Shown here: positions 50,337 to 53,209 of the stretch, piece after piece
Layout: each line of letters starts with the position of its first letter
How positions within the stretch are numbered: the first letter of the stretch is position 1
NCBI RefSeq assembly: GCF_013425525.1
Contig: NZ_JACCKA010000031.1
Span: 1 to 64,000, forward strand
From: Luteimonas salinisoli
Lineage (GTDB): Bacteria > Pseudomonadota > Gammaproteobacteria > Xanthomonadales > Xanthomonadaceae
Reading direction: 5' to 3'
Length of the DNA: 64,000 nucleotides
Translations under genes and position numbers: made by a program
The notes under the pieces: generated by a model
What the model saw: the letters and a program-made list of their open reading frames with translations, nothing else
Told to the model about the DNA's origin: nothing
The model's database searches: none

Positions 50337-51353
50337 ATGCGCACCCTGCTGATGAAGGCCGCGGTCCTGGCGATTGCCGGGCTGCTGTCGCCGGCGCCCG
50401 CCGGGGCCGCCCATCGCGCCCATTCCGAACCTGCGGTGCAGGTCGGCATCGTGCTGTTCGACGGCGTGCAGATCATCGATTTCGCCGCGCCCTACGAAGT
50501 GTTCGGCCAGGCCGGGTTCGGGGTGGCGACGGTGTCGGCCGACGGTGGGCCGGTGACGACGGCGATGGGGCTGGCGGTCACCCCAGACCACGGTTTCGCC
50601 GATGCGCCGCCGTTCGACGTGCTGCTGGTGCCCGGCGGCGACACCGGGGATGCCGAGCGCGACGAGGTGCTGCTGGGGTTCGTGCGCGGGCGTGCGGCAT
50701 CCGCGCGGCACGTGCTCTCGGTTTGCACCGGCTCGCACATCCTGGGCGCGTCCGGCCTGCTGGACGGCCTGCGGGCGACCACGTTCCATCGCGCACTGTC
50801 CTCGCTCGCTTCGAAGTACCCGGAAATCGACGTGGTGCGCGACGTGCGCTGGGTGGACAACGGCGCGATCGTCACTTCGGCCGGGCTGTCCTCCGGCATC
50901 GATGCGGCCCTGCACATCGTCGGCAAGGAGCGCGGGGCGGACGCTGCCAGCACGGTCGCGATGCACCTGGAGTACGACTGGCGGCCGGAAGACGGCTTCG
51001 TGCGTACCCGCATGGCCGATCGCCACCTGCCGGACCTGGGCCGGGTGCAGTGGCCGGAGGCGACGCGGTTCGACCGCATCGTGAACACCGGCGACACGCG
51101 CAGCTGGCGCATGCGCTATCGGGTGTCGACCGACGCGGACGCAGAGGCGCTGATGGCATTGGCCGCCGAGGCGCTGGACGGCACGGAAGGTTGGACGCGC
51201 GCTTCGGCGGCCAGCACCCGCGACTGGGTGGGCGCGGTGGAGGGCGAGCGGCTGCGGATGGCGATCGGTATGACCGCCGCGGGACCCGGCACGCACTGGC
51301 TCGACGTCGAGCTGGAGACGGCGGCCGAAGAAGAAGACGACGACCGCGGTTGA
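50337..51353 (+). CDS. Exported DJ-1/PfpI family protein
   Basis: This 338-residue protein has a signal peptide (KAAVLAIAGLLSPAPAGAA). A DJ-1/PfpI domain opens with VGIVLFDGVQIIDFAAPYEV; its elbow is VLSVCTGSHILGASGLLDG and TTFHRAL follows, with Cys and His well placed. A C-terminal extension of about 110 residues (after ATRFDRIVNTGD) is not part of the usual fold and ends in an acidic tail (EEEDDDRG). A good GGAG ribosome site is present. The domain resembles the sensor half of the adjacent regulator, suggesting duplication. Periplasmic DJ-1 proteins may act on glyoxal-type electrophiles or as hydratases; the role is unproven. Confidence 0.87.
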   Translation: MRTLLMKAAVLAIAGLLSPAPAGAAHRAHSEPAVQVGIVLFDGVQIIDFAAPYEVFGQAGFGVATVSADGGPVTTAMGLAVTPDHGFADAPPFDVLLVPGGDTGDAERDEVLLGFVRGRAASARHVLSVCTGSHILGASGLLDGLRATTFHRALSSLASKYPEIDVVRDVRWVDNGAIVTSAGLSSGIDAALHIVGKERGADAASTVAMHLEYDWRPEDGFVRTRMADRHLPDLGRVQWPEATRFDRIVNTGDTRSWRMRYRVSTDADAEALMALAAEALDGTEGWTRASAASTRDWVGAVEGERLRMAIGMTAAGPGTHWLDVELETAAEEEDDDRG

Positions 51354-51378
51354 GGCACGGCCGCGTCGTCGGGCACGG

Positions 51379-51500
51379 CCGCCGAGAAATGTGCCCGGGG
51401 GCGGGCCGGGGGATCCGTGACAAGTCGCTCCCCGATACTCGCTTGGTTGTCACGCATCCCCCGGCCCGCTAGCGACGGCGCGGCGATCGGGCCGGAGAGC
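51379..51500. repeat. 122-bp direct repeat, copy A, with 69-nt hairpin at 51401-51469
   Basis: This copy matches 51700-51821 at about 117 of 122 positions. At its centre is a 23-bp stem (51401-51423 with 51447-51469, one mismatch) around a 23-base loop (51424-51446). The loop reads GTCGCTCCCCGATACTCGCT then TGG. The third and last related hairpin lies inverted at 51568-51636. Confidence 0.9.
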
Positions 51501-51567
51501 GTAGGGTGCGGACAGGTCTTGCCGTGCCGGGGTTTTGCTTTTCTGAAAGCGCCGGTGAAGTCGGAGC

Positions 51568-51636
51568 ATCGGGTGGGGGCGGCGCCGCAACAAAGCGAGT
51601 ATCGGGGAGCGACTTGCGGTGCCGCCCCCGCCCGAT
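51568..51636. repeat. Inverted 69-nt hairpin, same loop with a different stem
   Basis: The left arm 51568-51590 and right arm 51614-51636 pair over 23 bases with only two G.U-type positions. The 23-base loop 51591-51613 (AAAGCGAGTATCGGGGAGCG flanked by C and AC) is the reverse complement of the loop in copies A and B at 22 of 23 positions. The stem sequence is unrelated to theirs except for the closing CAA/TTG. The loop is therefore conserved while the stem has changed but kept pairing. Confidence 0.9.
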
Positions 51637-51699
51637 GGCGCCACGTGCCTTCGGGCCATCGATCGACAGGCCAGGGTGGTGGGGCAGTTTCGGGCATCA

Positions 51700-51821
51700 C
51701 CGCCGAGAAATGTGCCCGGGGGCGGGCCGGGGGATCCGTGCCAAGTCGCTCCCCGATACTCGCTTGGTTGTCACGCATCCCCCGGCCCGCTGGTGACGAT
51801 GCGGCGATCGGGCCGGAGAGC
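51700..51821. repeat. 122-bp direct repeat, copy B, with 69-nt hairpin at 51722-51790
   Basis: This is the second direct copy, offset by 321 bases from copy A. Its hairpin arms are 51722-51744 and 51768-51790, with the 23-base loop between them identical to copy A. One change in the arm (A to C near the loop) is not compensated. The 131 bases between it and the kinase gene at 51953 hold that gene's promoter region; a GC-rich hairpin lies near 51826-51850. Confidence 0.9.
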
Positions 51822-51952: not shown

Positions 51953-53209
51953 ATGTCCACTTTCACCTTCGTCCTGCGCCATGCACTGGCCTGGTGCCTG
52001 TTCTACCTGGCGGTGCTGATCGTCTGGTCGAACCTGGGGCTGCCCGAGTTCATCGTGCTGCTGCTGGCGATGCTGACCCTGGCGTTCGTCATCCCCGATG
52101 CGATCTCCCACGTGCACCGGGTACGGATGATCATCGGCCAAGCCACGCCCGAGCATCTGCGCAACCGCCAGCGTCGCCAGGTGGAGGTGCCGTTCGTGGC
52201 CGGCGAAGCCTTCGACCTGGTGGACGCGGCGCTGCACGAGCTGCCCGGCGTCATGGACATCGAGTCGGCCCGCGACAGCCTGCGCGTGCACGCCGGGGTG
52301 CGCCGCGAGGATCCCTATGGCGCCCAGGGACGTTTCGATCCGCTGCGCTGGATCGACCGCCGGCTCGGCGGGCACCGCGACATGGTCACCGCCACCGTCC
52401 ACCCCAACGGCGACACCTCCACCATCACCCTGGCCTGCGAGCCGGAGAGCGCGGCCTGGACCGACTGGCTGCGGGTGGACCACGGCAGCAACCTGCAGAC
52501 CGCCGAGGCGATCACCCGCGCCATCACCCGCCGCGTCGGCGAGCAGCGCCGGGGCGAGCGCGCCGCCGCCCATCGCACCGCCAGCGCCAAGGAACTGAGC
52601 GAGGCGAAACTGAGCCTGCTGCACGCCCAGGTGGAGCCGCACTTCCTCTACAACACCCTGGCCAGCGCGCAGCTGCTCACCCGCAGCGACCCGGCGCGTG
52701 CCGACCAGATGCTCGGCCACCTGATCGAATACCTGCGCCGCTCGCTGCCGCGCACGCTGCAGGGGCAGTCGACCCTCGGCGAGGAACTGGAGCGCGCCAA
52801 CGCCTGGCTGGAGATCATGAAGTTCCGCATGGGCGCGCGCCTGGAGACGCAGATCGACGTGCCCGAGCCGCTGCTGGCGGTGCCGTTCCCGGCGATGATG
52901 CTGCAGACCCTGGTGGAGAACGCCATCAAGCACGGCCTCGAGCCGAAGACCGGCGGCGGCACGGTGTGGATCCGCGCCCGCGAGACCGAGGGGCGGGTGG
53001 CGGTCACCGTGGCCGACGACGGCCGCGGCTTCTCCAGCGAGAGCAGTGGCACCGGCATCGGCCTGCGCAACGTGCGCGAGCGCCTGCGCCTGACCTACGG
53101 CGAGGCCGCCGGCCTGCGCATCGCCGCCAACTTTCCCTCGGGCGTCGCGGCCACGGTCACCGTGCCCGCGGCCCCGGAGCCCGGACGCCCGGAGCCCGCC
53201 CATGCCTAG
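51953..53209 (+). CDS. LytS-type sensor histidine kinase with two N-terminal TM helices
   Basis: This 418-residue protein has two TM helices at residues 8-50 (FVLRHALAWCLFYLAVLIVW; FIVLLLAMLTLAFVI). A soluble domain of unknown type (about 60-190) follows, with PFVAGEAFDLVDAALHELPG. The His_kinase motif is VEPHFLYNTLASAQ and the HATPase has LVENAIKHGL, DDGRGF and GIGLRNVRERL. It overlaps the regulator gene by eight bases, so the pair is coupled. The soluble domain between membrane and kinase is the likely sensor. Confidence 0.9.
   Translation: MSTFTFVLRHALAWCLFYLAVLIVWSNLGLPEFIVLLLAMLTLAFVIPDAISHVHRVRMIIGQATPEHLRNRQRRQVEVPFVAGEAFDLVDAALHELPGVMDIESARDSLRVHAGVRREDPYGAQGRFDPLRWIDRRLGGHRDMVTATVHPNGDTSTITLACEPESAAWTDWLRVDHGSNLQTAEAITRAITRRVGEQRRGERAAAHRTASAKELSEAKLSLLHAQVEPHFLYNTLASAQLLTRSDPARADQMLGHLIEYLRRSLPRTLQGQSTLGEELERANAWLEIMKFRMGARLETQIDVPEPLLAVPFPAMMLQTLVENAIKHGLEPKTGGGTVWIRARETEGRVAVTVADDGRGFSSESSGTGIGLRNVRERLRLTYGEAAGLRIAANFPSGVAATVTVPAAPEPGRPEPAHA

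Follow-up and report, generated by a model that had tools for sequence, protein, structure and literature searches.

The described systems closest to the hairpins analyzed here are the REP and BIME elements, which are likewise short extragenic palindromes that occur in many copies, form inverted pairs and are sporadically distributed. Two further systems bear comparison. Integron attC sites are hairpins that are recognized by their structure, with one strand preferred, and are composed of boxes at the stem base together with a variable terminal loop. Geminivirus-type hairpin origins, which are nicked by HUH proteins, carry a conserved loop on a stem of variable sequence.

The elements described below depart from each of these systems. 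Their identity resides in the loop, and the stem sequence is free to vary, which inverts the arrangement in REPs. The conserved loop spans 24 nt, as compared to 4-5 nt in the CGTC families, the whole element spans ~71 nt, as compared to 20-40 nt in REPs, and, unlike RAYT-mobilized REPs, the family is present in genomes without a Y1_Tnp match. With HUH-nicked origins they share the conserved loop and the variable stem sequence, but they are chromosomal and multicopy; relative to attC sites, it is the combination of a conserved loop and a free stem that would set them apart. Like REPs, they are extragenic (some called ORFs overlap elements), palindromic and multicopy (37 copies in the genome studied here, 35 of them with a stem), yet they have no common stem consensus, as 255 elements resolve into 111 stems that are less than 80% alike. 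Because a common stem motif, a terminal tag and a short loop all fail to describe them, we file these elements as a variant of interspersed palindromic repeats that is REP/BIME-like but is not REP. The usual rule for bacterial palindromic repeats is reversed in them, with identity in the loop and not in the stem, and software built on the assumption of a short loop or a conserved stem would overlook families of this kind; the default maximum loop of RepRanger is 11 nt (PMC12306157). Among titles and abstract openings in open-licence PubMed Central, no published description of the loop strings or of related repeats was found, and the hairpins apparently belong to a family of extragenic palindromes that has no earlier description there.

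Hairpins between the DJ-1/PfpI and histidine kinase genes

The window, a 64,000-nt stretch of DNA, comes from the genome of a Luteimonas relative assembled in 95 contigs (G000). Several of the other labeled genomes probably correspond to named species, namely G010 (Luteimonas endophytica), G046 (L. suaedae), G002 (L. aestuarii), G255 (Lysobacter concretionis) and G101 (Thermomonas haemolytica). Three hairpins in the order A, B, A, with B in the opposite orientation, are located between a DJ-1/PfpI gene and a histidine kinase gene (Table 1). As the initial annotation had recognized, all three share the same arm-loop-arm build, with arms that are 96% (A1), 92% (B, 24-nt arms) and 91% (A2) complementary and a gap of 23 nt between the arms of each. 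It was also correct in describing a loop that is kept at 22 of 23 bases and an inverted middle copy with an unrelated stem: read on the CCAAGCG strand, the loop is CCAAGCGAGTATCGGGGAGCGAC in both A hairpins and CAAAGCGAGTATCGGGGAGCGAC in B, and the A and B stems have nothing in common but the closing CAA/TTG. The direct repeat that contains the two A hairpins is present, but at 132 nt it is slightly longer than the 122 bp first reported. When folded as single-stranded DNA, the loop strands of A1, B and A2 reach -31.4, -31.6 and -30.9 kcal/mol, respectively (z scores of -8.4, -7.3 and -7.4, with 0 of 200 shuffles equally good), and the complementary strands fold almost equally well (-29.8, -28.2 and -28.3 kcal/mol).

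Table 1. Features of the hairpin locus in the window.
Feature	Position	Strand	Details
DJ-1/PfpI gene	50337-51353		Pfam
Direct repeat, copy 1	51369-51500		contains A1
Hairpin A1	51400-51470	-	arms 51401-51423 and 51447-51469, loop 51424-51446; CCAAGCG on - strand; 80.8 bits with family model (51400-51470, -)
GGAGAGC (loop strand GCTCTCC)	51494-51500	-	~25 nt 5' of A1 stem
GCTTTTC	51537-51543	+	5' motif of hairpin B
Hairpin B	51567-51637	+	arms 51567-51590 and 51614-51637, loop 51591-51613; stem unrelated to A
Direct repeat, copy 2	51690-51821		contains A2; 94% identical to copy 1
Hairpin A2	51721-51791	-	arms 51722-51744 and 51768-51790, loop 51745-51767; 77.4 bits with family model
GGAGAGC	51815-51821	-	5' motif of hairpin A2
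Histidine kinase gene	51953-53209		Pfam

Of 52 genomes of the genus, that of L. endophytica is the closest at the kinase gene (93%), and its corresponding site holds a single hairpin in which the loop is changed and the stem is largely intact. Because L. endophytica has one hairpin there, the A-B-A array may have grown locally by duplication. A copy in this genome (L058, near 1987) is chimeric: its left arm is of the B type, its right arm is of the A type and the loop between them (CAAAGCG..) is almost intact, which suggests exchange between elements at the loop.

A conserved loop on stems of almost any sequence

The family consensus consists of a stem of ~23 bp of almost any sequence around the 24-nt loop CCAAGC-NN-RTAWCGDG-NN-GCGACT. 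In G000 the loop core has 37 matches with up to three mismatches, as compared to 0 for a reversed control, and when small shifts are allowed the stem is paired at 13 or more of 20 positions in 35 of them; of the other two, the first is truncated by the end of its contig and the second is apparently a chance match. By eye, the stems of this genome fall into at least five unrelated groups. Along the loop strand, the stem is followed by CCAA, a possible apical helix (GCNN/NNGC) with the 8-nt tip RTAWCGDG, and GAC. The closing pair is A-T in 102 of 111 stems. Pairing is 0.80 or higher through position 23 and 0.64 or lower from position 24 in 61 stems that are less than 70% alike, a set selected on the first 20 positions alone; beyond the Lysobacteraceae, stems inspected by eye are sometimes longer than ~23 bp.

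Within the candidate apical helix, the two outer pairs are intact in 31 and 30 of the 31 hairpins, respectively. The two inner ones are broken in 18 and 17, chiefly in the GCGA/GAGC form, whose sequence would permit tandem G·A pairs, and where they do form they alternate between CG and GC. RNAalifold retained the two outer apical pairs alone, and the window copies show no such helix when each is folded singly. In one subclass (CCG..GAAT), positions 3 and 23 of the loop seem by eye to change together. Three genomes (G056, G107 and G130) contain two or three loop classes each, for instance CCA..GACT together with CCG..GAAT, and their coexistence may point to more than one reader. Draft contigs stop in or near elements, and isolated N bases occur within stems (L019, at the start of G000 contig C85; L025, at the end of contig C87; and L012, L016, L017 and L023); the hairpins may disturb sequencing or assembly.

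Stem covariation and the strand that folds

In 31 non-redundant hairpins, which were preselected for pairing, 91.4% of stem cells are paired, as compared to 57.7% with shuffled partners and 35-41% with slid partners; 269 cells are double-changed, as compared to 79 in shuffles, and covariation is seen at 23 of the 24 outer pairs. Similarly, 38 non-redundant stems from the same preselection form 18.8 of 20 pairs, whereas swapping their right arms between elements yields 10.8 pairs, with a maximum of 12.2 in 1000 swaps; seven of the 38 were omitted from the 31-hairpin alignment. Before alignment, 18 of 127 pattern matches had been dropped for having fewer than 14 of 20 paired positions, and these were mostly chance matches, with decayed, chimeric and offset-stem copies among them. 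A broader collection comprises 315 candidate elements from 47 genomes; at least two of these candidates, both within the shared-site groups described below, are false by eye. Sixty of the 315 fell under the pairing cut of the wobble set, and the loop is the common part of the 255 well-paired elements that remain. The inference drawn from the window, that a conserved loop combined with a variable but paired stem reflects constraint on a folded strand, stands across these 255 elements, although template switching during replication can give rise to compensatory changes as well.

Mismatches within the stems indicate which of the two strands is folded, and their direction offers a simple way to ask this of any palindrome. 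Were the duplex alone, or both strands alike, to matter, equal numbers of G·T and A·C mismatches would be expected, and A·C was counted as acceptable during selection in order to keep the test unbiased. On the loop strand of the 111 stems that are less than 80% alike, 111 G·T and 39 A·C mismatches are present (p = 3e-9), an inequality which argues that the loop strand folds; the ratio is 72:27 in 73 stems that are less than 70% alike. Purine-purine mismatches also outnumber pyrimidine-pyrimidine mismatches (46:21) in the set of 111. By genus, the ratio of G·T to A·C is 24:10 in Luteimonas (g1), 48:11 in Thermomonas (g51) and 16:2 in Lysobacter (g4), and in Thermomonas the purine-purine and pyrimidine-pyrimidine mismatches are even (13:13). 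In elements whose loop strand runs antisense to the two flanking genes, the ratio is 41:7 (37:3 with both genes near), and it is weaker in sense elements, at 19:6 (14:6 with both genes near, p = 0.12). Because the bias is present in antisense copies, it follows the loop and not the mRNA, and the loop strand probably folds in a form other than mRNA. Changes of C to T on the non-template strand would be expected to give the opposite bias in antisense copies.

These counts bear on whether the element acts as an RNA hairpin in operon transcripts, with a role in processing, stability or protein binding. Narrow gaps within operons, among them adk-mpl, lpxA-lpxB and hslV-hslU, do contain many of the copies, and a stem of 23 bp would suit RNase III. 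Such a role is nevertheless improbable in our judgment, as the wobble bias tracks the loop strand in antisense copies, the orientation relative to transcription is mixed and flips at orthologous gaps, and Rfam contains no match. The protein-binding RNA proposed by the initial annotation is disfavored by the same asymmetry and by the flips in loop orientation. Dependence on the direction of transcription is weak (77 antisense and 53 sense elements in a tandem context, p = 0.043, uncorrected for relatedness), and no replichore bias was seen when the record start was taken as the origin (14/11 versus 13/16, p = 0.59, for 54 of 56 elements in ten genomes, one with two contigs). At the gathering score, a search of 13 sources against Rfam 15 returned two tRNAs and nothing on the element; sub-gathering matches on the element, mostly to microRNA-type stems, were taken as chance.

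A small RNA gene with its own promoter, transcribed along the loop strand, would account for the loop-strand wobble in both gene orientations. It would also have a candidate upstream signal, as 33 of the 51 elements in G000, G010 and G046 carry the motif GCYYTYC ~25 nt from the stem on its 5' side (3 on the 3' side), as do 53 of 87 Luteimonas elements. However, the motif is frequent in Luteimonas copies only, being present in just 4 of 93 elements in Thermomonas and 7 of 44 in Lysobacter, and inversion of the loop between retained outer arms would detach a flanking promoter. Considering also that no Rfam family matches, we find such a gene very hard to credit.

The reading that we prefer, and to which we give an even chance, is that the elements are REP-like non-coding hairpins that are addressed by their loop and read as single-stranded or cruciform DNA by a putative trans-acting protein. 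The CCAAGC..GCGACT strand would fold, as single-stranded or cruciform DNA, into a ~23-bp stem of free sequence that need only pair, and this stem would present the conserved loop. The loop may itself close the short apical helix GCNN/NNGC, and it would be the loop that the putative protein binds. Template switching would probably help to re-perfect the arms, and it would invert the loop as well. DNA would be the acting form of the element, and its copies would spread as REP/BIME elements do. The family provides hundreds of natural stem-swapped hairpins, in which the needs of a hairpin reader would be separable from the effects of replication on inverted repeats.

Distribution, arrays and orthologous gene gaps

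The picture of one loop on differing stems extends to other genomes. Copies of the loop are present in Luteimonas, Lysobacter and Thermomonas, and Halieaceae, Zeimonas and other proteobacteria carry it on unrelated stems. Neither of the two findings that the initial annotation had named as fatal to its interpretation, absence of the loop elsewhere or joint conservation of loop and stem, was thus made. A pattern scan identified it in 75 of 395 genomes of the family, a number that includes chance coding matches. Model scans, which scored 20 (order) or 13 (class) candidates per genome under strict filters, detected it in at least 6 of 250 genomes of the order sample, all of the same family as the window's genome, and in at least 2 of 369 genomes of the class sample, namely G000 and a distant genome in which the loop is enlarged. 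Scanning named genomes with the pattern (at least 108 stretches) adds Halioglobus and Pseudohaliea rubra, which are Halieaceae (Gammaproteobacteria), Halieaceae Ww294, Zeimonas arvi of the Burkholderiaceae (Betaproteobacteria), at least two Burkholderiaceae MAGs and other MAGs. Among the matches listed, 49 come from 34 loci outside the family, and in 42 of these 17 or more of the 20 stem positions are paired. A viral origin was rejected, as the one pattern match in a viral contig is within a predicted ORF and has no matching stem by eye. The distant genome G771 carries its enlarged-loop variant (AAGCGAGTTATCG..CGAGCGACT) on a long stem in three places (L502-L504). In KLAP199 and PRO3 MAGs (L397, L403, L406, L399 and L462), the stems appear by eye to share a base that contains an asymmetric internal loop with GGA opposite GCAA, a feature absent from the other lineages looked at.

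Neighboring elements are regularly arranged in some of these lineages. In G000, G010 and G046, 22 of 23 neighboring pairs are inverted and one faces the same way; 15 pairs are 5'-facing at 154-169 nt (14 of them at 165-169 nt) and seven are 3'-facing at 131-156 nt. The Halieaceae set, in which one gammaproteobacterial MAG is unclassified, has 12 pairs; all are inverted, and ten of these are 5'-facing (six at 166-173 nt and three at 141 nt). Pairs facing the same way account for 10 of 16 in other Luteimonas (including G002 and G028), 4 of 10 in Lysobacter and 1 of 5 in Thermomonas, and BIME-like regular inverted alternation is a property of the two former sets and not of the other Luteimonas.

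Alternating inverted pairs in some lineages, an extragenic location, sporadic occurrence and strand bias would also be displayed by REPs whose mobility depends on a RAYT (TnpA-REP) transposase. We give this little credence. Matches to Y1_Tnp (PF01797) do not track the family, as they occur in 14 element-rich and 15 element-free genomes out of 20 each, which leaves 6 element-rich genomes with no match; the free part of the element is the stem, not the loop; and the tags expected at the stem foot show little or no excess over control windows, with GTAG near the 5'/3' foot in 4/0 of 111 elements (control 4/0) and CGTC in 8/9 (control 4/8), which is no clear enrichment. The CGTC REPs also seem to be without a dedicated transposase (PMC3733652).

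A partner gene, such as the linked transposase or recombinase that the initial annotation had suggested looking for, did not emerge from the other genes examined. RVT_1 is present in 6 of 20 element-rich and 3 of 20 element-free genomes, and IS110 in 12 and 6 of 20, so that neither tracks the family; RAYT/Y1, RVT_1 and IS110 were each rejected as the partner, as each is both present and absent in element-rich and element-free genomes. Element-free here means without a loop-pattern match in the 395-genome scan; for RVT_1 and IS110, 5 of the 20 element-free genomes of the Y1_Tnp test were replaced, and 5 of those used also lack a model match. Among neighbor genes (883 ORFs), housekeeping genes of shared sites were the only ones recognized in the 45 largest groups, and they include a gene resembling XerC that lies beside hslV in seven genomes. 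The arrays and the sporadic spread suit the idea of a mobile single-stranded hairpin, but neither transposition nor a target duplication was observed, and no transposase came to light.

Elements persist at orthologous gene gaps. The 315 candidates form 24 shared-site groups in which both flanking proteins match between at least two genomes, and some groups split one gap (1 and 15 at adk-mpl, 5 and 23 before hslU, and 18 and 19 in one gap). The gap after purF holds elements in 11 genomes of Lysobacter and Thermomonas. Loop identity is 0.91-0.92 at orthologous gaps and 0.90 at unrelated sites. Taken at the best of small shifts, arm identity is 0.67-0.68 in the same orientation and 0.56 in the opposite orientation (0.48-0.49 at unrelated sites), and flank identity is 0.46-0.48 and 0.39-0.40, respectively (0.35-0.37 at unrelated sites). 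Both loop orientations occur in 14 of the 24 groups, or in 10 when genomes with a single element alone are counted, and at sites 4, 6 and 10 the loop is inverted in place between outer arms that are recognizably the same. Arm retention across an inverted loop exceeds the 99% null in 4 of 109 opposite-orientation pairs, where ~1 is expected, and in 1 of 109 when whole 22-nt arms are compared.

The three inversions accord with a different account, in which template switching alone keeps the stems paired and inverts the loops, the loop is a double-stranded protein site and the hairpin is functionless. Template switching creates compensatory pairs and can invert loops (PMC8794818). The changed loop beside a largely intact stem in L. 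endophytica is as expected if mutation, not loop reading, keeps the stems, and residual hairpins without the loop are seen by eye in the adk-mpl gap of three or four genomes. However, the loop inversions described in the same report were very rare and in loops of 4-8 nt (PMC8794818). Furthermore, template switching by itself predicts no excess of G·T over A·C on the loop strand, the CG/GC alternation in the minority of inner apical pairs that form would be needless for a duplex site, and pairing stops near 23 bp in the Lysobacteraceae set, though by eye some stems outside it are longer. We consider template switching as the sole cause to be unlikely, if a serious contender. It probably contributes to stem pairing, but it does not explain the conservation of the loop or the strand bias. 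A recombination site, another of the initial proposals, gains slight support from the in-place loop inversion and the one chimeric copy, both of which template switching or ordinary exchange would explain.

A broader form of the loop-reading proposal, which we advance tentatively and with more doubt than confidence, is that the element is a loop-read single-stranded or cruciform DNA signal with sequence-free stems, kept at housekeeping operon gaps over genus-scale times and served by a putative reader that is sporadic across the Beta- and Gammaproteobacteria. By eye, the adk-mpl gaps of 19 out of 20 Thermomonas relatives (the twentieth has no adk match of sufficient length) comprise seven with the element, four with a residual or other hairpin that lacks the loop, two with another long palindrome and six with no clear hairpin; hairpin-free gaps of 8, 24, 25 and 62 nt exist among these relatives, and gain and loss are indistinguishable there. 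The different long palindrome is located in the adk-mpl gaps of G212 (L377) and G227 (L376) and starts with GTAG in G212, which suggests that such gaps tolerate several kinds of hairpin repeat.
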